From Dromaius novaehollandiae (lineage: Eukaryota > Chordata > Aves > Casuariiformes > Dromaiidae): a DNA stretch of 64,000 bases. Below are positions 15,700 through 63,493 of this stretch, piece after piece; the stretch's first letter is position 1; each line of letters begins with the position of its first letter. The DNA lies in assembly GCF_036370855.1 (NCBI RefSeq), contig NC_088111.1, positions 19,131,501 to 19,195,500 of the forward strand, written 5' to 3'. Position numbers and translations under genes: made by a program. Under the pieces are notes generated by a model. The model did no database searches and was not told where the DNA came from. It saw only the letters and a list, made by a program, of their open reading frames with translations.

Positions 15700-18600
15700 C
15701 TACTTCTTCTGAAGTGCCTCTTCTTTCAGTTGGTTGACAAGCTCTTCAGCATACACTTTAAAGAGTGGGACAGGGTCCTGGAAGAAAGTGGAGGATAAGC
15801 TAGTTGAAAGGACTGAACTTGAGCAGCAGCAAGGTATAAAGTCTAGTAGTGAATAAAGATAGCAGGGTGTCCCGACTGCAACAACCCATACTCACACACC
15901 TGCACTACTAAAGCACATATCGCTCAACCAGTCTACAGCCTGGTAAGGGCTAATGGGAAGTACCAGTTACAAGGGTGGGAAGAAAGAGCACCCCTGGGAC
16001 CCTGTCTGTGGTCTCCGATGCCGGTGAGACTCACAAACATCTTTGCTCCTCTCAAGACAAGAGCCCTTTCCCCTGCACGCAGTCAGCCCAGGGAGCCAGC
16101 GCCACAGGGTGCTGACAGTCAAACTCAGAGGAAGAGGGGCCAGGTTGTTTCAGTGGCTGAACAAAGCAACATGCTGTGCTACTCCTGCATATACAGCTGC
16201 TGACCAGCCTGTAATTTCAAAGATTATAGGAATCTGCTTGGGACTTTGATCAGTTTTACCCAGTGTTGCCTGTAGATGAGAATCAGCAACGACTCCCAGT
16301 AATCCCTTTCCATCTAAAAAGGCTTGCCTCCCTTCTCACGTTGCACTACATCAGAGCTGTATTGAGGCACACAGGGAGAATACACTCCTTCGAGAAGCTG
16401 GAGCCCCACAAGGTTCAGGTGCCCGGCGTCACCTCATGCATTTGGCAATCCTGATCTCTGTTCCTGCTGCAGCTGCAATAAGAGCTAAAAGACGAGGGGG
16501 AGCATCACCAAGGGACCCTGTCCCTGTCAGGAAGCCCTTTTGCCTCAGCAGCCACCTGGCGTGCTCTCTGCTCGGCATTACTGCTTCTCACCAGCTAGCG
16601 AGCAGCAGTGAGCCCTGAACTTGCATCCCTGTGTCCCAAAGCACAAGCAGTAAAACAGAAGGCAACCAAACACAAAGATGGTCATGCAACAGGGGAAAAA
16701 GTATGAGCCACCCCCACTAAAAATCCCTCCCCCCTTTGGGAGATCTGGCTTTACAATGCACTTTAACCCAGCCTGTGTTTCACATGCTCAAATTCCTGAG
16801 GCAGCTCAGGGATTCTGGAGCACTGCATCTGTTGATAAGGAGTGCTTGGGCAGCTTAGAAGATCAACTGGATACGCAGCCTGATGCAACTAAGAACACTG
16901 CTGTGTCCACAGGACAAGCACTGCCTCAGAAACTCACCTTTTTTTCTAAAAGCCTCTGTTTTTCTATCGCTTCTTCTAAACTCAGGCCAACCCATTCAGC
17001 TTCCTCTTCTGGAATCACAAATTCCTGTGACAGAAGAAGAAACTGGTTGTTTAATCTCTCCAGGTGACTAACACACACATCTTCTCTAGGACCAAATCAC
17101 ACAGACACAGGATCAAGTAGGAAGAGCACTACAGCCAAAAGACTTAAACACTGTTTCCTTGCTTATCCCATTTTTTGGCAGCCAAAGTTCACTTTTCTCT
17201 TTTTCTCTTTGCAAGGGCCTTCCTTTCTCTGATCATTCGTGTATGTTGCTATTCCTCTTCTTTTTATAGCTCTGTGGCAGCTTCTCTGCACGACCCTGCA
17301 GGCTGTGGATGCTAACCTTGTTTCTATGCTTGTTTCAGCAGATGCACAAAATTAAACAATCACATAAAAGCAATCGGGCCTTCTCACTGCAGTGTCACTA
17401 GAAATGCCCCCTGCTATTGGGAGGGCCAGCTCTTACTAATGCTTATTGCAGACCCTCAGTGACCTGGTTCACACCAAAAAGAGGAGCTTTTGTCTTCCTA
17501 ACTGATCAGTAGTGAAATCTGCAGCCCACAGAGAAACAAAAACCTGACAAGTAACTTTCAGGTCTTCTCCACCAACACCCTTAACCCTAAGAACAGGAGC
17601 ATGAAGCTTGCACAGGACGAATAGGACATAATCAATCCGGACAGCCGGCTAAGATCGGCATACATACCGGAGCCCGAACCGCAGGTCAGCTACCCACCCG
17701 ATACTTATGATAAATCGCCTCTCTTCTGGCTGGGTCATCAGGATGCAGCTTAGGATCCTTCCGCGCAAGTCGCAGCAACATTGTTCGCTTCAGATCCATA
17801 CCGAGCTTTGAGCCCATATCTGCCTTTGGGGTCTGGAGGGATAAAGTCTGCTGTTGACATGCATCTCTAACAGGCCAGCTGCTAGGCAGCCAAGAGCCTA
17901 CCAGCACGGAGACAACGCACGCAATCTATCCACGCTTTAAGGGGGAAAAGATCCCCCAGATTTTTTTTTTGCAGCTAATTGACCGCGATTCTGATCTGTA
18001 ATGCTGAGCTGCTTAAATTAAGAATGTATTAAAGGCTGGAAACTTTAGGGCTGCACTAATACACCGATGGCAGCAGACGCCCGTGTGTGCCGAGCCAGGG
18101 CGACGTTTGCCGACCCGAGGCACGGAGCGCTGCCGGCAGCCCCGTGAGCCGGCCAGGGGGCCCCGGGGCGCCCCGCGGCACGCTCTTGCCTTCAGGATGT
18201 AGAAGTCAAAGCCGAAAGCCTCGTCGATGAGGTCCAGCGTCCGCATGGTGACGGTGATGGTCATCGTGGTGTCGAGGATCTCGCTGTAGAACTGGCGGCT
18301 GAAGAGCTGCGGCTTCCACGTCTTCGGCAGTCGGGTAGAGAGCTGGGCGGGAACGGCCGGTCACGGCACCGGCGCCGCCAGACCGGGCAGCCCTGGGGCC
18401 GAGCCAGGGCTCAGCCCCGCAGCGCGGCGGGGAGGGGGAGGGGCGCTCACCTTGTCGTTGCGGGCGTAGCGGAAGCCGCGGATCCAGCCCTCGCCGCCCC
18501 AGAGCCCCTCGTGGGCGGCGCGCGGCAGGTGCACCGGCACCGGCACGTCCTGCACGCGCTCGCGCTGCCCGGTGCGCGGGTGCCGCCGGTAGCGCACGCC

Positions 18601-22346: not shown

Positions 22347-25300
22347 TCAGGTCACAGCATACAGCTCCTCGCGGTCGTTCTGGCAGATCTGATAGCGGCA
22401 GGTGAGCTTCTGTGACCAGGCCCAGGGCTTCTTATGCTTGTCCCGAGGTGGGAGCAGGAAGGCGACACTGCTGGCCACCAGCATATGCCAAATGCTGTGG
22501 GTGTAGTAATAGTTTTCATTGGTTTCCATGAATGCATATACTGAGATGGCGATGAAAGCCAAGGTGATCCCTGGTAGGAGGTAGAAAACCCAGCGCTTCC
22601 ACGAGGAGGGGTAGCAGTGTCTGCGCTTCACTCCATGGTAAACCTGAAGGTGTGAGAGTAGAGAAGGGTAAAAGCAGCCAGCCACAAGCTTACGTTGGGG
22701 AAATAGGCAGCGCTGCTTGACCTCGGAGCACCTGTCAACCAGCCAGTCCTCACAGCAAGAAGGTATGCTTGCTATCTCCAGGGAAATTCAGCCTTCCCCC
22801 TGCCTTGGGCCCATCTCTTGTGCGCAAGGCCCCATATCCAGCTGTGGCACCAATGCCCAGCACAGAGGGCAACGCTGATGCCATAGTCAACAGCCAACCA
22901 CTCCGGCATGACACTATAGCCACAGGTGCACATTGAATGGGAGCTGCAGCAGCTGGACCCTGCTGAGACTTGTAACCAGGGTTTTTCTCAGCTACCAGAG
23001 AGATGGAAGGTAAATTCCTTGCCCTGCTCTTCCTCCACTGGGGCATTCCAAGGAGATCAACCCATGGATATGGATGGGCTGGTGTCTGGGGCCCACTCTG
23101 TGACCGCTGTTCTCTGGAGGGGGAATAAGGGGCAGCAGGTCCTGCTTGGCTCCCGTTACTCACCCACGCTGCAATCATGATGATGAGGGCAAAGAGGCAG
23201 GGACCCATCATGTTCCACACTCCTCTGCGGTCCAGCTGCAGAGACATGGCAATGAAGAGAGTCCCCAAGATGAAAAGGACCTGCAGGTGAGACAGCACCA
23301 CTAACATCAGGATCTGATCTGCTGCCAGAGCACAGCCAGCGATGCCAAAGGCTTAAGGTAGGCAGAACCTCATCTCCCAGCTGCCCAGCCCTGCCTGCAT
23401 GGCTCAGGAGCAGCACCTTCAGCATGAGAAACTGGAGGACCCACAAATCTTCCCCCTCACCCTCTTTAGGCCCAGTCCCAGCAAGCATGCAGGCTGTGGG
23501 CCAAAGTCTTGGGACAAAACAACCCTCCGGTTTAAAAATCAGGGCAGCACTAGGTGACAAACAGTGTTTGGAAGGCAAGGAGGGCTGCCTAGGGAGCAGG
23601 GCTACCTTGGAGGCAGCACAGGAGGAGCCACTGTACAGACTGTGCTATGGAAGTGCTGCCACGAGAGGGCACAGCAGAGCTGCCTGCGGCTTGGCTGGCT
23701 CAGGCCTGGGCGGCCCTGCAGCTCCGGGTTACCTGCGGCAAAGACCCACCACTCACGTATTTCAGAATCTTCTTCACCCGGGACATGCACAGGATCGTCA
23801 CCCAGATGGACACCACGGAACCCAAGAAGTCACAGTACTGTAGTGTGTCATAGTCCATAATGCACAACACAGCAACGCCCGGCTGGTCACACGCATGGTA
23901 GAACTAGAGCCAGGAACAAGAGCAAAGGCTAGCATGAATCCAGCAGCACCACACAGCTTTCCAGGAAGGAGATGCAGAAGAGCTAAGCCCACGGTAGCCA
24001 GGATCCCTCCTGGAAGTGTCTCCATAAAGCTTCAAACTACCACAGCACTGTGGAAAGCAGCTGGAGAGCAACCATCAACCTGCACCCTCACAGCAGCAGG
24101 CTGAGAGCTCCTAGGACAGCATCCCTCAGCTCAATCCTGGTCCTCTGAGGAGTCAGCAACGCCATATATGTCTAATGTGACAAGGAGCCCCTGGGTATAT
24201 CCAGGGTCCCACAGACAGCAGCTCACTCCCGTTCAGGAAGAGAGGGCAGTGTGCTCCAGCCAATGCAGCTGCCTGGGTGCAATCCTGGGTCCCAGAGAAT
24301 GCTACACGCATTAGAGCGTGGAGCAATGAAGGTGCATAGAGCTCCAACCCCATCTCAGCTCCCCAGAGGCCTGACCCCAAATGCAAGCACCCACAGCAGA
24401 AGCAGGAAGAGCCCAGTGAAAATAACACTCCTGTTGAGCAGGAGCAGGACAGGCGCAGGACATATCCATAGGGGTGCTCACTCAGTGATCCCAGAAGCTC
24501 CTCATAGAGCTCCAGGATGGGACCACTCCACCAAGGACCTCAGTCCAAGCAGGCAGGACTCGCTTCCTGACACTCAGGGGAGAGCGCAGTTGGTGCTGTC
24601 AGGGGAACTGACAAAAGGCAATTCCTACCGTGGAGAAGAACATGGTGTAGGTGTAGACGGAGGCCTCCACCAGGCAGTAGCGATAGACAGCAACCATGAT
24701 TGCTGGCAGGAACATAAGGTTACTCAGTGTGAGCAGAAGGGTGGCCAGGTTTTGCACACTGACAGACTGGGCCTTGGTATCATCCGTGCAGCTCCACCCA
24801 CTCCAACCTGCAGAGCAGAGAGGCCTGTGTGTGTTGCATGCCCTGCTTGTCCTCCCACAGCACCCAGCAGAAGCTGGGACTCCTCACAAGCAGCAAATCA
24901 CATCACAGGACTATGCCCAGGCCTCCCTTCCCCTGCTCCAGAAGGCAGCACACTAGAACAAGGAAGGATGGACTCGCCTACCACCTTGGGAGCCCACCAA
25001 GGGTCCAATGTTCAGGGCAGTTCACCCACAAGCATTCATCTTCCCCAATAACCCAACCTGTATCTATACAGAGCAGGCAATTTTAATAGCTTTGCCGTTT
25101 GCTCTCACTGACTAATGAGCTCTGGTGCCACAGCCCCTCTTGCCCATCTGCTCCATCAGCCACTCACACTCCTGTCCTCAGGACACTCTTGTTACCCACT
25201 GCATGCTCTGCTGCAGAAAGTCACTGGCCCAGACTCCTAAACCTTGAGGGAACCCCTGCAGAGCCCAGTCCAAGATCTGAGAAAGTCTTCCAGGTAATTC

Positions 25301-53529: not shown

Positions 53530-54265
53530 CTAACGGTATTTGGCAGTCAGCACGTTAGCCACAGCACACAGGAACTTGTCCAGGGAGGCGTGGACCTCTG
53601 GGGTCAGGAGAGAGGGGTGATGGATGGCCACCACCACCAGGAAGCACTGGCCCAGCAGCTGAAAGGCAAAGGGAGATTGTGAGCAAGCAAGTCAGGGGAG
53701 GGTGCAGTCAGACAGCACAGAGATGGGACTGGAGGAGAACCAGGCTGGGTTGCCCCTTCTCGGACACTCACTTTGAAGTTCACAGGGTCCACGCGGAGCT
53801 TTTGGGCATGGAGGTCGCTGAGCTTGGAGAGGGCCGTAGAGATGTCATCAATGTGGTTGGCAGCCTCAACCAGGGCAGCTGCCACCTTCTTGCCATGCGC
53901 CTTGACTTGAGCAGAGCCATGGTGCAGGTCGAAGTGGGGGAAGTAGGTCTTGGTCTGGGGGTAGGTGGTGAACAGCCTGCAGGGCAGAGAAGGTGAGGGC
54001 TGGTGGGACAGGACCAGCAGGGCTGATGGGGAGGGGGACAGAAAAGGCAGGGGTGAGGACAGGCATGGCTAGGACACGGGCAGGTGCAGCTCGGGAGAGG
54101 ATGGGGGCAGACGGGACAGAAACGGGGACAGGCAGGATGGGGACAGCCAGAGACGGGGACGGACACTTGCCTTTCCAGGGTCTCAGCTCCATACTCCTCG
54201 GCATGGGGGCCGATCTTGGCGAAGACGCTCTTCGTGTTGGTCTTGTCAGCCGCAGACAGCACCAT
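53530..54265 (-). CDS. HBA: Alpha-A globin, major adult alpha chain
   Basis: Oxygen-carrying alpha subunit of the major adult haemoglobin (HbA) in erythrocytes. Three coding exons, 54171-54265, 53772-53976 and 53530-53658 (95, 205 and 129 nt), give 142 residues with Met, the exact family length. It begins [12 protein letters not shown] and ends VLTAKYR. Distal His ([10 protein letters not shown]) and proximal His (LSDLHAQKL) are present. Intron positions are the conserved globin ones (phase 2 and phase 0). Intron 1 has a GC donor, AAAG|GCAAGT, otherwise a perfect match to the consensus; intron 2 is GT-AG. Residue 32 (mature numbering) is Leu, where the bird and human sequences I know have Met. 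The gene lies last in the transcriptional order pi, alpha-D, alpha-A, and a TATA box stands about 60 bases upstream of the ATG. Confidence 0.98.
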
Positions 54266-54323
54266 GGTTGCAGCTCCGCGTTGGCAGCCCCCAGCACGGG
54301 TGCCCCCCACCGCCGCTGCCGCC

Positions 54324-54331
54324 CTTATATG
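54324..54331 (-). promoter_or_regulatory. HBA: HBA TATA box
   Basis: The minus strand reads CATATAAGG here, about 60 bases before the ATG, placing transcription start near 54,298. I see no CCAAT box in the next 100 bases upstream; instead there are many G-rich Sp1-type words and a 12-bp palindrome, GGCGACGTCGCC, at 54,418-54,429 with a CRE-like core. Confidence 0.85.
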
Positions 54332-54432
54332 CAGTGCCGGGGCCCCGCCCGCCTCCCGGCCCCCCCCCCCCGCCCCGGCCCGGCCCCGCCCGCCCCGGCG
54401 GCGCTGGACCGCGGCCAGGCGACGTCGCCACC

Positions 54433-54472
54433 GGCCCCGGCCCCGGCCCCGGCCCCGGCCCCGGCCCCGGCC
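54433..54472 (-). repeat. (GGGGCC)n hexanucleotide repeat upstream of HBA
   Basis: Six full and one partial copy of the hexamer, GGCCCC on the plus strand and GGGGCC on the HBA sense strand. It lies about 100 bases upstream of the TATA box. Such G-runs can fold as G-quadruplexes. Copy number in the assembly may not be exact. Confidence 0.95.
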
Positions 54473-54649
54473 GCGGCGCCCGACCCGCCGGCAGGGCCGG
54501 GGGCAGGAGGAGGGCCCGGGTCTGCGGCGCCGGCGCGGCGGGGTGTCCTGCCGGAGCGGGGCCGGGGCGGCAGAGCAGCCGCCAGCTCCCGGCGCTCGGC
54601 ACCGGCACCGCGCTGCGAGCGGGGGGCACAGCGGCCTGCACACCCGCCC

Positions 54650-55660
54650 TGCGCCTGTACGCACTGCCGTCCTGCACAGCCCCTGTGCACACCCGCTGCG
54701 CCTGTACACACATGCTGCGCCTGTACCTACTGCCACCCCGCATGGCCCCTGTGCACATATGCCGTCCCTGCACACACGTGCTGCGCCTGTACACACACGC
54801 TGCGCCTGTACGCGCTGCCATCCAGCACAGCCCCTGTGCACACACGCTGTCCCTGCACACACATGCTGTGCCTGTACACACACGCTGCGCCTGTACCTAC
54901 TGCCACCCCGCATAGCCCCTGTGCACATATGCTGTCCCTGCACACACACGCTGCACCTGTACACACACGCTGCGCCTGTACACGCTGCCATCCAGCACAG
55001 CCCCTGTGCACACACGCTGTCCTCGTACACGCACACTGCGCCTGTACGCACTGCCATCCTGCATGGCCCCTGTGGACATACAATGTCCCTGCACACACAC
55101 GCTTTGCCTGTACACACACGCTGCGCCTGTACGTGCTGCCATCCAGCACAGCCCCTGTGCACACACACTGCACCTGTACACACACGCTGCACCTGTCCAC
55201 GCTGCCATCCAGCACAGCCCCTGTCCCTGCACACACACGCTGCGCCTGTACACACACGCTGCGCCTGTCTGCACTGCCATCCCACACGGCCCCTGTGCAC
55301 ACACGCTGTCCCTGCACACACACACTGCGCCTGTCCACGCTGCCATCCAGCACAGCCCCTGTGCACACACCGTCCCTGCACACGCATGCTGCACCTGTAC
55401 GCACACACTGTGCCTGTCTGCACTGCCATCCCGCACAGCCCCTGTGCACACGCTGTCCCTGTACACACATGCTGCACTTGTCCACGCTGCCATCCAGCAC
55501 AGCCCCTGTACACACACGCCATCCCCGCACACACACGCTGTGCCTGTACACATACGCTGCGCCTGTCCGCACTGCCATCCAGCACAGCCCCTGTGCACAC
55601 ACGCTGTCCCTGCACACACACGCTGCGCCTGTCCGCGCTGCCGTCCGGCACGGCCCCAGC
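54650..55660. repeat. Minisatellite, nested 65/85-bp units, between HBAD and HBA
   Basis: About 1 kb of tandem repeat. Each unit starts with a word like 'cacagcccctgtgcacacac', continues with one to three copies of a ~20-bp subunit of type 'acacacacgctgcgcctgt', and ends in 'gctgccatccag'. Starts of successive units at about 54675, 54741, 54826, 54912, 54996, 55061, 55147, 55213, 55285, 55351, 55434, 55498, 55583 and 55648 give spacings near 65 or 85. The difference is one 20-bp subunit. Units differ by several substitutions, so the array is not brand new. Stops are rare in several frames on both strands, giving long meaningless open frames. Confidence 0.95.
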
Positions 55661-55689
55661 CCTCGCCCCTGCACACACCACCACATGCT

Positions 55690-57066
55690 CCCTGCAGAGA
55701 GGCTGATGTCCCCGACTCCGGGAGCGGGGGACATACGGCAGTGCTGGGCACCGACCCAGACACTGGCCTGCAGCAGGAGCTCGAGGCTGGGGAAGGGAGG
55801 CGCGCTCGGCCGCGGTGGGTTTTGGGGAGCCATGTGCCCCCAGTGAGGAGGGTCAGGGAGGCGAGGAGACGGGGAAGGCGAGGAGGGCGAGGAGGGCTGC
55901 AGTGCTTCCAGTCGTTTCTAGAGCTGGCACGCGCGGGCGGGGGGACAGTTCACGCTGTGTTTTCTCCATGGGGCCGACGGTTCTTATCGTTTGTGTTTAG
56001 GGGAGATTAGCACAACCCAACCTGGCACCGGTTCAGAGCACGGGGCGGGGGGGGGGGCTGGTCTTCCAAGAAGCTGGGCCGGTGAAACAGCGGCAGGGGC
56101 AGCGTGTTTGCTGTGCGTGACAACATCAGTGGGGCAAACTGCAGAAGTGCAGAGCCCTCCAAACCGAAGGCATAAGAATAAATGGATATAAATGTACATG
56201 AATATGCTGGGACTCAGATGATGCTTCTGAGCATGGAGGAAGAGCACGGTGGATTCATGGGTGTACTTGCGAGGGCAGAGGCCAGCATGGCCCAGGAGTT
56301 CCCCAAGCCTGTGCTTCTGTGCGCACGAGGTCCCAGGACAGCCGGCACCCACTGTCTGTGCTCGGGACCCCATAGGTGCTGTTCCGACCCACCTTCTCTT
56401 ACACTCACTCTTAAACTCTTATCTCATCTCTCTCTGTTGTCACAGCCTAGAGCAAACTGAAAGCTGCTTTAGGATCTTACAACCCGTCACCTCCCGGTGA
56501 TCTAAAGGCAATGAGTTTTTTGATTCAGGCTCCAGAAACATGAAACCAGCGGCCCCTGCGGCAGACTCCGCCTGTCCCTGGTCCCACCCACCCCAGGAGC
56601 CCTGGGAAGGGCAGACACCCAGGGTGGGTGTGGGGGGCACTTCCCTGCCAATCACGAGGGATTTGTGGCTCAGGGACTGGAGCCAGAGACAGTATTATTT
56701 GTGCTTGATGGTCTGTGGTGCATTTTTTTTGCTGCATGAATTTGTCCGATTGCTTTTGGAGCTCATGCAGGCACTCGGCTCCCACAGCATCTGAATCAAG
56801 TCCTAACCACTCATTGCAAAAGCTGGGGCCAAGAGGGGCTAAGCCTACCCCCAGGTAAACAGCACCAACAAGATCCAGGGACTGCCAAGAACAAAACTGG
56901 GCTTTGCGTATCCTTCATCTCTCCCATTCCCCAACGGGACACGGGCATGACGAGGTGACAGCCTGGGGTCCATCCCACTGTCACTGAGGTGCTGCCACCA
57001 GCCTGAGGACAGGGCCAGGATGGAGCAGGTTCGGCGCAGGACAGGCCCCAGGCAGGGCCCCCCTCC
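55690..57066. other. Intergenic DNA between HBAD and the minisatellite
   Basis: No gene recognised. Contains a G homopolymer near 56,043-56,056. This is the 5' flank of HBA and 3' flank of HBAD. Confidence 0.55.
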
Positions 57067-57230
57067 TTCCTCAACCGTAGAACGAGGCGGACAGGGCCCC
57101 AGGGTGGGTGGGAGACAGCCCCCAGCCAGCACCACCCCCGGGCCCTGCTTGGGGCACCTGCCGAGGGCTCCCCCCACCCCGGCCAGCGCTGCCCCAGCAC
57201 ACACGGACACGGTGGTGTGGCAAAGGCATC

Positions 57231-57236
57231 TTTATT
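57231..57236 (-). terminator. HBAD: HBAD poly(A) signal
   Basis: AATAAA on the minus strand, about 31 bases past the position of the ancestral HBAD stop. In the shifted reading frame of this copy it is read through as codons, with no stop before it. Confidence 0.85.
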
Positions 57237-57266
57237 GAGCATGTGGGCACGGGCGGCACGGGGGCC

Positions 57267-58004
57267 TCATCTGTACTTCTCAGCCAGCACGGAGGCACGG
57301 AGGCCACGGCTGCCAAGAACTTGTCGAAGGCGGAGTGGACCTCGGGGGTGTAGTCCTTGCCCAGGTGCACAGCCAGCACCACCTGGAAGCACTGTGACAG
57401 CAGCTGCAAGGCAAACGCAGGGCTCAGCACCGCCGCTATGGCCCCCGGCCCGGCCCCTGGCCCGCCCTGGCCCCTGGCTCGCCTTGAAGTTGACGGGATC
57501 CACATGCAGGTTGTAGGCATGCAGGTTGCTGAGCTCGGACATGGCCTGGCTGAGGTTGTCCAGGTTCTTCACGGCGTTGCCCAGGGCGTTCATCACCTTC
57601 TTGCCGTGGCTGCGGATCTGGTCAGAGCCATGGTGCAGGTCAAAGTGGGGGAAGTAGGTCTTGGTCTGGGGGTAGACCATGAACATCCTACCGGAGCGAG
57701 GCCGGTCAGAGCGATGGCACCTCCCAGCCCACATCCCCCCCGGCAGAGGCCGGGCCCGTATCACCCGTGGGGGGCTCTGCATCCCCTGGCCCCCGGCCTG
57801 CGTCCCCCACGGGGGTCCCAGGCCCACATGCCCTGGCCCTTCCCCCCCGTGGGTCTGCATTCCCCCAGCCTGGCCTGCCATGGGGCTCCCGGCCACCGGT
57901 CGCAGCCCACACCTCTCCAGGGTCTTGGCTCCAAAGGCTTCCTGGTGTCCCATCACCCTCTCCCAGACCTGCGGGATGACCTTCCTGTCGTCAGCGGTCA
58001 GCAT
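57267..58004 (-). CDS. HBAD: Alpha-D globin, C-terminus frameshifted by 8-bp duplication
   Basis: Alpha subunit of the minor definitive haemoglobin (HbD). Coding exons are 57913-58004, 57483-57687 and 57267-57403, where 57267 is the ancestral stop position. The product starts [17 protein letters not shown] and continues normally through heme-pocket histidines ([19 protein letters not shown]) to [11 protein letters not shown]. Exon 3 is 137 nt rather than 129, because an 8-bp word is tandemly duplicated at 57288-57295 and 57296-57303. The frame therefore leaves the expected VLAEKYR ending and reads [10 protein letters not shown] onward, open to 57,071, past the poly(A) signal. Intron 1 is GT-AG; intron 2 has a GC donor (AAG|GCGAGC), as reported for duck alpha-D. 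Either a recent disabling mutation or an assembly error; the rest of the gene looks well kept. Confidence 0.93.
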
Positions 58005-58079
58005 GGTGGCGGCTGGCGGGGCAGGGCGGTGTGGCGGCTGTGTGGGGCTCTGTGGTGGAGGTGCCCGTTGGGCCGCCCC

Positions 58080-58086
58080 CTTATAG
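58080..58086 (-). promoter_or_regulatory. HBAD: HBAD TATA box
   Basis: The minus strand reads CTATAAGG about 76 bases before the ATG, directly followed by a G-rich CACC-type word (GGGGGCGGC). It looks intact. Confidence 0.85.
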
Positions 58087-58134
58087 CACCAGGCCGGTAC
58101 CCTGCGCCCTCCCCCAGCCCCACTGCCGCTCCAG

Positions 58135-58147
58135 CCTTATCTTATCT
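58135..58147 (-). promoter_or_regulatory. HBAD: Overlapping double GATA site upstream of HBAD
   Basis: The minus strand reads AGATAAGATAAGG, two overlapping GATA-1 consensus sites about 50 bases upstream of the TATA box. Paired GATA sites are typical of erythroid promoters, including avian alpha-D. Confidence 0.8.
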
Positions 58148-58194
58148 GCGGGGGGCTGCGGCCCCACAGCGCCTGGCCCAGGGAGCAGCTGCAC

Positions 58195-58720
58195 AGTGCT
58201 GCGGGGGCCCTGTGGTGGCCCAGCCTCGTCCTGAGGGGGCCCAGACGGACCTTGTGGTGGCCCGGCCCAGCCCCGTGGGGACCCTGGTGGCCCCAGCCCA
58301 GCTCTGAGGGGCCTGGGGGGGACCTGACCCAACCCTGTGGTGGCCCAGCCCAGCCCTGAGGGGCCTGGAGGGGACCTGGCCCAGCCCTGTGGGGACCCTG
58401 GTGGGCCTGGCCCGGCTCTGAGGGGCCTGGGGGGGACCTGGCCCAGCCCTGTGGGGCCCCGGGTGGGCCTGGCCCAGCTCTGAGGGGCCTGGGGGGGACC
58501 TGGCCCAGCCTTGTGGGGGCCCTGTGGTGACCCAGCCTGGCCCTGAAGGGGCCCGGCGGGACCCGGCCCGGCTCTGAGGGGACCCTGTGGTGGCCCGGCC
58601 TGGCCCCGTGGGGACCCTGGTGGCCCCAGCCCAGCTCTGAGGGGCCTGGGGGGACCTGGCCCAGCCCTGCAGGAGCCCTGAGGGGGCTCGGCCTAGTCCT
58701 GAGGGCCCCGGGGGCACATG
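58195..58720. repeat. GC-rich minisatellite upstream of HBAD, ~52-63-bp units
   Basis: Degenerate tandem array built of words like 'gctctgaggggcctgggg', 'gacctggcccagccctgtgg' and 'ggaccctggtggccccagcc'. Unit starts at about 58301, 58353, 58415 and 58478 give spacings of 52, 62 and 63; another copy appears at 58633. It produces a long open frame on the minus strand with no protein similarity. Confidence 0.85.
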
Positions 58721-58759
58721 GCCTGCGAGCCTCCGCAGCAGCCTGGCTGGCTCCTGCCG

Positions 58760-60955
58760 TGAGGGGTCCGACCAGGGCCCTGCTGGCCCTGGGAGTGGGA
58801 GGAAGCTGCCTGGCAGCGCTGCCCCCAGCAGTGGGTCAGCAAGCACGGGCACCTGCCGTGGGTGCCGAAGGACTGCTGTGGTCACGGCCCGGCTGCCCCC
58901 TTCTCAGACATCCCTGTGCGGATCTGCCATTTCCGCCTTCGCTGGGCCCAGGCCCTCCGTGGCTCCTCGCCACCCACGTCGCGGTGGATCCCACATGTGG
59001 CCCTGGCCCTTGTGCCCTCCAGCCTCCAGCATGTCCTCAGGCCTCCTCCCTGCCACGGGCTGCCTTTGCCCACAGCGCGTTCCCAGCGCCTCAGAGTAGG
59101 AGCTGCGGACAAGCTGGTGGCAAGCCCTCTCAGATACTGCCGGGGATCTGCCATGGGAAAGACCATTTCTCCAGCAGCCCAGGGAAACTGGGGTGGGGAA
59201 GAACCTCCTTTCTCGGCATGTGGTTTTTTCCAAGTGTGCACCTGCAGCGCTTACCAAGCCGTGATCTGTTGCCTTGTTCCCATCCCAGGGTGTGCTCCTG
59301 CCTCTCCATAAACACAGGGACATCCCACAGGGCATGTGGTGGTTGGTGGCTGTTACACTCCTCATTAAGGCCCAGGATGAAGTCACTGGTATACCTTTGG
59401 TTATTTGATCAGGGACATATCATATGCTGACCTGCCATATAAGTTGTTGATTTAAACATTCAGGTTACCTGAAACCCCACAAACATACAACGTATTAGAA
59501 AGTTGTTGGCCCCAGCAAGCGCTGGGGTAGACTTTCTGTAACAGTTTGGGAGTAATTTGGCAGCTTCAGAGCTGCAGTATTTTCCCTCTGCCCAAATACA
59601 GCACCTAAATTTTTCAGCATTCCAGGAACTGTGTATGAATATAGCTCTCAAAATTAGTATTTTGTAACTAAGAGGACGACAGAAACATGCAATGCCAATT
59701 TGGGCTCGTTGATCAAAGCTTGTCTAAGACTTTGCACCCACCTTTTCATGTGAAAAAGTCCTCTAAGACACACATGGGCAATGAATGTAACTTGAAAAAT
59801 ATCTCACTACAGGGATATAGCTCAGTAAAAGAAATAGGAGTCACTCAGTCCTTAGACATCGATCCCTCCTAAGCTGCCTTGAGCATTCAGTTTGTTGCAC
59901 ATGTGTGGGGAACTTGCCTAGAAATGCAGTCTTTGGCCTGCACACAGCATGTGGGTCACTTAAGTAGTGAACACACCCCCAAACAAAGAGGTTTTCCATT
60001 TTCAAACTGTTCTAAAAATCACTGTGTTTTTCTTGGAGAAACAATGGATCACTGTAGAGTCTTGGAAAAACTTTGGAAGAGGAAGCAAGGATGTGAATGA
60101 AACAGCTCACACAGCTTTTATCAGCTGACAGCCAGGCTGTTGACAGGAGGGCCTTGGCCAATTAATCACGGTTGTGGTTCTGAGGACAATCCCTCTGCTC
60201 CCCCCAGGGTGACCCTCAGTTCTGTATTTTTCACTGTTGCCCCTCTCCGGAGAAACCCTGGGAATTCAGGTCTTCCAGATGTCATCAACAGAGACCTTCA
60301 GTGGCCAACACTATTCCTAAATTTCAAATGCGTGCATAGTTCCAGTATAAAACTAGGAAATGTCAAGCTGAGGGGGGACTTCCCCTTACCAAACCTCTCT
60401 ACCAGGTATGATAGCCCAAGATTTTCATGAAAAATAAAAATGTCAAGTACCATATCAACTACCTACTCTAGACCCTGTGGAGCATGCACCAGGGCAGTTA
60501 GAGGAACGATGACCCAGCCTGGCTCTGGGCACATCACAACACATGGCAATGCAGGTTATGTTCAAGTTAGGCTGGTCTGGGTTTTCCAAAGTGCCCACTG
60601 ACAGCTCCAGGTGACAGCAGCACAGGAAACATACACTTTACTCCTGTTTTCCAGATAGGCCAAATGAAAAGCCTGGATTCATTCAATATCCCAAAAGGGT
60701 AAAAGACTGATTCCTGGTCAGCCTTATCCCTGGTGAACCCACCTTCTGCACAGTGAGCAGAAGCAGTCACAGGGCTCTAGCTTGTTCTGGGCTTCTTCTC
60801 AATGGTATGTCACTCCCACTATGCACATGAACTTACACAGCTTAGCATTTTCCCCTCCACCTTTTGTACGGATGTCAAAATACCCCTGGCTGAACAGTGA
60901 GGTGTAGGTGGAACAAGTGAAGATGAAAGCACAGAGACCAAAGTGCACAGTTGAA
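58760..60955. other. Intergenic DNA between HBZ and HBAD
   Basis: No exon recognised. A GATA motif joined to an E-box (ttatcagctg) lies at 60,118-60,127. The stretch from 59.3 to 60.9 kb is AT-richer than the HBAD flank. No clear CR1 copy was seen. Confidence 0.55.
60118..60127 (-). promoter_or_regulatory. GATA / E-box composite motif
   Basis: The minus strand reads CAGCTGATAA, an E-box directly overlapping a GATA site, 0.8 kb past the end of HBZ and 2.1 kb upstream of HBAD. Composite E-box/GATA sites bind TAL1-GATA1 complexes, though usual spacing is wider, so activity is uncertain. Confidence 0.3.
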
Positions 60956-60958
60956 TTA

Positions 60959-60964
60959 TTTATT
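60959..60964 (-). terminator. HBZ: HBZ poly(A) signal
   Basis: AATAAA on the minus strand, about 130 bases after the HBZ stop codon. Only canonical signal nearby. Confidence 0.9.
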
Positions 60965-61092
60965 GGGTTTTGCAGATGACTGAACCCCTACACAGAGGGC
61001 TTGAGAGGACTGTGTAGGAAGAATGAATACCCCAAAGCCTGGCAGCTGTGGCATGCCATGGACAAGCATCCCTCACCCTCTGTGAAGGCCAT

Positions 61093-63493
61093 TTATCTGT
61101 ACTTCTCAGTCAGAACAGAGGAAACACTGGACAGGAATTTGTCCCATGCAGCATGAACTTCTGGGGTGAACTCACTGGGATAGCGGGCAGCCACAGAACA
61201 CAGGATACAGTGGGAAAGCAGCTGTAAGAGAAAACAGGACAAAATCCATTGTAATCAGTTATAGACCTCAGTCTAGGGATCTGTAACAAACCTTACTCCC
61301 AGCCTGCTCTGGGATGACAAACACGTGTCCCAGGCAGTTAACACTGCTGCCTTATGCTAAAGTGTGAAGAAGCAGAGTTGCCTTTTGCACAGGGAAAAAG
61401 GCATTGCTTGATACCACTCCCTCTTTCCAAATGTCCCTTCCTCCTTCACCAAAGGGAAATGCAAGAAAAGTGGAAATGTTGTCTAGAATTTACTAAGGTT
61501 TTGTTCAAGAAAGGCGATATTATAATCTGACTTGTGAGGAAGATTCATAAACTACCACAAAGGCAGCAGGGGCTCAGGTCTGTCTAACACAGACCACAAG
61601 AGCTCCCTGAATAGTTCTTTGCTTGAGCTAGACCAGATCTTTCATGAAAGGGTCCAATCTCAGGTTAATAACCAGGTGGTGAAGCAGCAACATGAGTTGA
61701 CAAGGCTGTACAGTGCAGTCAGGGATCGAGCTGCCATTAGCTGAAATGATCTCTGGTCTCTAATTTTGTGACTGGCGGTTTTCACCGCTAAAAGTGTCTG
61801 AGTTCGCTCACCTTGAAGTTCACGGGGTCCACCCGAAGGATGTAAGCATGCAGCTCGCTGAGTTTGGCCAAAGCACCTCTAATGTCATCAATGTTCTTCA
61901 CAGCTTCCCCAATAGCATTCAGGACCTTGGAGCCATGACCACGAAGCTGAGCAGAACCTTGGCTCAGATCGAAATGAGGGAAGTAGGTTTTCGTCTGGGG
62001 GTAGCTGGAGAAAAGCCTGGAGGAGAGCAAGAGAATTAAATTCAGCAGTGTAAATTGCATGGAGGACCTGAACTTCAGGACAAGTATGCTGTAAACCCAC
62101 CAGTTGCAGCAGTACACTCATTCAGCTGTTGTAACAGAGCTTCGGAGGCTTGAAGCTTGCATTAAGACCTGCGATGTTTTTGCTCTTAAAACACTTCTGT
62201 AGTATGTACAGAATAGCCAGCGGTCTAAAGTTTTTTAAATGTAATGTTTTATTAATAAATAATGCACCCAAATTGTCACCTACATTTCTTGTATTACACT
62301 GTCAGCCAGTTAGCAGGATCTGCAAACTAATCTGAGCTGAATGAACCAGAATCAATATGAGTGGTACTCTGAGTCTCTGAAAGAGCATCACAGTACTTTA
62401 GATTGATCTATAAATAACATCTGAATAACTTTGGTTAACTTAATTGCTTCAGAACAATTTACAGACTATTCTCCCTTTTGTGCCAGCTTGCTTAATTTGG
62501 GTGAACTTTTTTTGGAAGAAGTAGAGACTTCCATAGTCTTAAAAGCAGCTTGGCTGATTTGAAAGGGACATTCCTCTTGTGATAATAAGAAGCTATTGTA
62601 TTTAGAGTGGCTTCTTTCTGTACCCATTCTGTTTCTGTGATATACTCCATGCAGAGTCCAGCTGTGTTGTTTCCTAATGGTCTGTTATATATCGACTGGG
62701 TCAATGAAACATGACTATCCGATGAATTCATTGGACAGCTATCCTCTATTAATGCTGATTATATGGCAACAGGAATTGCATCACTCATACAATAAACCAC
62801 TTTAAGTTCATTTCCTAGTAGTGGTAACCCTATTTCAGGACACTGAGTATGAATGACTTTGAATTCCTCCTCAGTGCTCCTGGCTACGAATTCTTCTAAA
62901 TTGCTATAATGGGAAAGAAACCTGTAGAATTGAATAGAAAATTATGGTTTGCCATAAGACTTTGGGGCTATCTATTAGAATTTAGTAGCAAAGATGTAAT
63001 TCCAGTAAATTACATACTAAATAACATAGAGTTCATCAGCAATTTCTGTACAATTGCTGAATTCTAAAGGACTTGCCCTAACGCTTGTTCTCCAAGACTT
63101 ATCTAGGTCCTTCCTCATCAGTATCTGATGGTGCGGCCCAAAATCCACTGATACCACATGCTCAGTAGCCAGGCAGCCTTGGCCCTTATCCCGCAGGGCT
63201 CTGCACACCGTCGGCAGAGCCGGTCAGCTCCCCACTGCCGGAGAGGCTGAGCACATGTAAGGAGGTGGTTAAGATGTTTACAGAATCTAATTCACACAAC
63301 TCCCGGTGTGATCTCATTCGTATAAGTTTTACACAAGAAACATCTTAACAGCAAAGTTAGATGAGGGACCCTCTTCGGAGGGATGCTGGGTGACTTACCT
63401 CTCCAGCGATTCTGCCCCAATGGCATCAGCTTGGGGAGCCACCTTTGCCCAGATGGTGACCACGGCGGCCTTCTCAGCTTGAGTCAGCGTCAT
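61093..63493 (-). CDS. HBZ: Embryonic alpha-type globin (avian pi, zeta orthologue)
   Basis: Alpha-type chain of embryonic haemoglobin in primitive erythroid cells. Coding exons are 63399-63493, 61812-62016 and 61093-61221 (95, 205 and 129 nt), giving 142 residues with Met. The product starts [18 protein letters not shown] and ends SVLTEKYR, close to chicken pi throughout (for example [19 protein letters not shown] and [17 protein letters not shown]). Distal and proximal histidines are present. Both introns are GT-AG at conserved positions. Intron 1 is 1.4 kb, far longer than in HBA and HBAD; intron 2 is 590 bases. The first gene of the cluster in transcription order. TATA, CCAAT, CACC and GATA elements lie upstream. 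Confidence 0.97.

Follow-up and report, generated by a model that had tools for sequence, protein, structure and literature searches.

The mammalian relative of alpha-D is human HBM, which has an open frame and may be transcribed without contributing haemoglobin, and in birds HBAD has been lost repeatedly, as Opazo et al. are said to have reported in 2015. Most birds studied are described as carrying HbA together with a minor HbD of higher affinity (PMC4670201, PMC5400398), and in the account given in PMC8020755 penguins have HbA alone after hatching, from which it follows that life without HbD is viable. In another globin gene, human HBB, two exon 3 frameshifts that lack the natural stop are reported to leave mRNA undetectable, and restoring the frame restored the mRNA (PMC5465470). 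Such losses of HbD are familiar from birds, and the duplication that we describe here in HBAD of the emu is probably a further case.

We analysed a stretch of 64,000 nucleotides (hereafter the window; C14:19131501-19195500) from one pseudo-haploid assembly of 1,468,444,375 bases in 271 contigs. The alpha-globin cluster occupies positions 53530-63493 of the window on the minus strand, in the order HBZ, HBAD, HBA, and its relevant features are:

61093..63493, minus strand: HBZ, open, exons of 95/205/129 nt, comparison gene
58081..58085, minus strand: TATA motif of the HBAD promoter, -81 from the ATG
57913..58004, minus strand: HBAD exon 1, 92 nt, ATG at 58004, donor GTGTGG
57483..57687, minus strand: HBAD exon 2, 205 nt, donor GCGAGC, codon 92 His (CAT)
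57267..57403, minus strand: HBAD exon 3, 137 nt to the ancestral TGA, which is now out of frame
57288..57303, minus strand: perfect 8-bp tandem duplication, CCTCCGTG x2, within HBAD exon 3
57231..57236, minus strand: AATAAA poly(A) signal, ahead of any in-frame stop
57071..57073, minus strand: first stop codon of the shifted HBAD frame, past the poly(A) signal
53530..54265, minus strand: HBA, open, exons of 95/205/129 nt, comparison gene

By sequence, the middle gene is closest to alpha-D chains. The best single-domain solved chains, 1hbr_A with 239 bits and 1v75_A with 223 bits, carry the label haemoglobin D and are presumably the chicken and giant tortoise chains, and the next single-domain chain reached 176 bits; fused two-domain human alpha chains rank above them by summing two domains. 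Pfam assigned the product to Globin with 116.7 bits. The gene lies between HBZ and HBA and has three exons, which amount to 141 codons including Met provided that the additional 8 nt are not counted. Upstream, GATA motifs are found at -137 and -142. Intron 1 opens with GTGTGG and intron 2 with a GC donor (GCGAGC), which probably represents no damage, since a GC donor is a known feature of duck alpha-D. Two introns of the cluster have such donors, the other being intron 1 of HBA (GCAAGT in place of GT, 54170-54165, minus strand). We also observed a GC-rich minisatellite at 58209-58723 (units of ~31/62 bp), starting ~120 bp further upstream than the HBAD TATA motif, and a long minisatellite array at 54634-55657 (periods of ~66/85/151 bp) upstream of HBA.

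Up to the ancestral TGA, exon 3 measures 137 nt in HBAD versus 129 nt in HBA and in HBZ. The excess is exactly 8 nt and falls at the same place as the perfect tandem pair, so the initial annotation was right both about these lengths and in attributing the difference to one tandem copy of an 8-bp word. When the 434-nt HBAD coding sequence was shuffled 5000 times with a first-order Markov model, 55 of the shuffles had a perfect period-8 pair. The tandem pair, taken together with an exon exactly 8 nt longer than the family standard, argues for a duplication event rather than a coincidence, and from the sequence alone this is the sensible reading of the extra 8 nt. The HBAD protein is colinear with alpha-D chains up to Val135; directly after this residue the frame shifts and reads PPCWLRSTD..., and the normal ending LAEKYR disappears, along with the last part of helix H and the C-terminal Tyr-Arg. 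A frameshift after AAVASV with loss of LAEKYR had indeed been proposed. In place of a frame open to the Tyr-Arg C-terminus, the coding sequence carries a disabling lesion of the kind that marks a pseudogene.

The shifted frame remains open for 74 codons beyond Val135 and closes only at 57073. The AATAAA at 57236-57231 comes before any in-frame stop (the 3' end is predicted), again as the initial annotation had claimed, and this AATAAA was the sole match when ten poly(A)-signal hexamers were scanned from 57267 down to 54601. Since the stop lies past the only signal found, an HBAD mRNA ending shortly past AATAAA is predicted to have no stop codon. A scan of 57000-57400 for bacterial promoters and terminators gave nothing and is irrelevant to a bird gene. 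The 74 open codons could also be read as the new tail of a functional, extended alpha-D chain, produced by use of a longer 3' end. We regard this as highly improbable: no second poly(A)-signal hexamer occurs down to 54601, such a tail would displace the C-terminal Tyr-Arg, on which the T state of haemoglobin depends, and mRNA was lost in the comparable human frameshifts. As far as they are described, the human HBB alleles resemble HBAD in combining a small shift in the last exon with an altered C-terminus and no premature stop; they differ in that their frames could yield slightly longer proteins, whereas in HBAD no stop was found before the poly(A) signal.

We consider it likely that HBAD exon 3 carries a real, slippage-type 8-bp duplication and that this is a null allele giving rise to no HbD. 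Within this reading, fixation of the loss has somewhat less than an even chance, and a null allele that still segregates is possible but on the doubtful side. The duplication would have originated by slippage in a GC-rich stretch. Everything upstream of it is still open, a point on the contrary side. We infer that the HBAD transcript would be made and spliced, that ribosomes would run into its poly(A) tail, and that the stop-less mRNA would be cleared by surveillance, while any chain made, deprived of the end of helix H and of Tyr-Arg, would probably be unstable. The duplicated allele would then yield no HbD, and adult oxygen transport would depend on HbA. In this the emu would be like penguins and other HbA-only birds, whose adult blood rests on HbA without HbD; here the change is a defined 8-bp duplication in exon 3, and it is found in a palaeognath. 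Human HBM is similar in being an alpha-D-type gene that is perhaps transcribed without a haemoglobin product, yet it keeps the open frame that HBAD has lost here.

An artefact had been among the options of the initial annotation. If the duplication had been introduced by assembly or polishing, the animal would have one 8-bp copy and a normal HBAD, and both the GC-rich, repetitive surroundings of the site and the fact that everything else for HBAD expression is open fit such an error. However, an exact 8-bp duplication is no typical long-read error, and HBA, on the same contig, scored 305.7 bits against the independent record 3wtg_A, identical to its self score (3wtg we take to be emu haemoglobin). 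Four trial single changes in HBA cost 2.3 to 3.7 bits against this chain, and 34 of the 34 displayed residues were identical. Open frames were also seen in all five of the other globin genes examined (HBA, HBZ, two beta genes and beta-A; one further globin-like match, L010, was left out of this count). Given the HBA score and these five open genes, base quality looks good, and we judge an artefact unlikely, and less likely than a real allele. The exon 3 stretch has a single 100% place in the 1.47-Gb assembly, which indicates that there is no alternative haplotype contig with the single-copy form, and no second HBAD was seen among the 10 globin matches listed.

It had also been stated that the rest of the gene looks intact. 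This stands insofar as HBAD shows no further frameshift, premature stop or lost splice site, and the TATA and GATA motifs are kept, but two substitutions make the description doubtful as judged from the sequence. At codon 27 HBAD has AAG (Lys), against Glu in all five other compared chains (E27K), and at codon 92 CAT (His), against Arg in the four others compared there (R92H); we take the former to be helix position B8 and the latter to lie in the FG corner, where alpha1 contacts beta2. In addition, position 11, in helix A, is Pro, versus Gln in chicken and tortoise alpha-D. These three residues are what could be expected if the loss were old and shared among palaeognaths, the duplication being a late hit in an already silenced HBAD, a variant of the null-allele explanation that overlaps with it. 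To this the lack of any further disabling change (stop, frameshift or splice loss) can be opposed, as can the modest number of private changes at invariant sites: 4 of 24 in HBAD versus 7 of 94 in the other chains together (Fisher p = 0.16; residues 1-37 in six chains and 65-95 in five chains, without tortoise alpha-D), two of the four in HBAD being Lys to Arg. The apparent excess is weak and not significant; taken alone it does not demonstrate relaxed constraint, and we claim no accelerated evolution from it. On balance, an old shared loss seems rather unlikely.

The emu/cassowary split is placed at ~28 million years ago in PMC8665684, which also describes low substitution rates in ratites. 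We modelled neutral decay with an assumed rate of 1e-3 substitutions per site per My and indels at 10% of substitutions. At this rate 0.45 changes are expected in the 16 nt of the duplication over 28 My, so that the perfect match between the 8-bp copies carries little information on age. The probability that HBAD acquires no additional stop or frameshift and loses neither a splice site nor its start falls from 0.94 after 1 My to 0.55 after 10 My, 0.19 after 28 My, 0.09 after 40 My and 0.03 after 60 My. A loss older than ~40 My would be unlikely under this model. The pseudogene had initially been called very young, a qualification that we do not retain: tens of My fit too, with a 19% chance of a clean state at 28 My. 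HbD might also have been lost in the emu/cassowary lineage while HBAD was kept transcribed but untranslatable, its transcription tuning the neighbouring HBA; promoter and splicing would then be retained for HBA, and decay of the stop-less mRNA would silence the product. We hold this to be improbable.

Under the preferred reading, a real null allele of HBAD, the significance of the duplication depends on its frequency. If fixed, it would join the repeated losses of HbD in birds as a palaeognath example whose lesion is defined, and would provide a natural test of the need of birds for a high-affinity minor isoform. If it segregates, emu flocks would allow birds that have HbD to be compared with birds that lack it. 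In addition, the allele would, if the prediction is true, show a stop-less globin mRNA occurring naturally in an animal. We recognised no published report of the HBAD lesion in the literature searched, although this search was limited and absence from print is unproven. Blood RNA of the kiwi, in which, according to PMC4882810, two haemoglobin sequences stood out as highly expressed when 250,000 reads were assembled as a test, is a place to look for alpha-D.

Outside the alpha-globin cluster, a motif search found three beta-type globin genes in 26 kb (G000:C1:218598000-218624000), a count from which a fourth may be missing; four are named for songbirds in PMC9554719. The beta-A gene, near G000:C1 218608697-218607100, agrees with 3wtg_B in 144 of 146 positions. 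The two differences (Asn for Met and Glu for Asp), present even though HBA scored as identical to 3wtg_A, may reflect another species of the group, a polymorphism or the deposited sequence. On the minus strand of the window, 10 of the 113 listed open reading frames were scanned and gave flanking matches to Ribosomal_L28 and DUF3522 (18013-18360 and 22347-23352), which we take to be MRPL28 and PGAP6/TMEM8A, neighbours of bird alpha-globin clusters.
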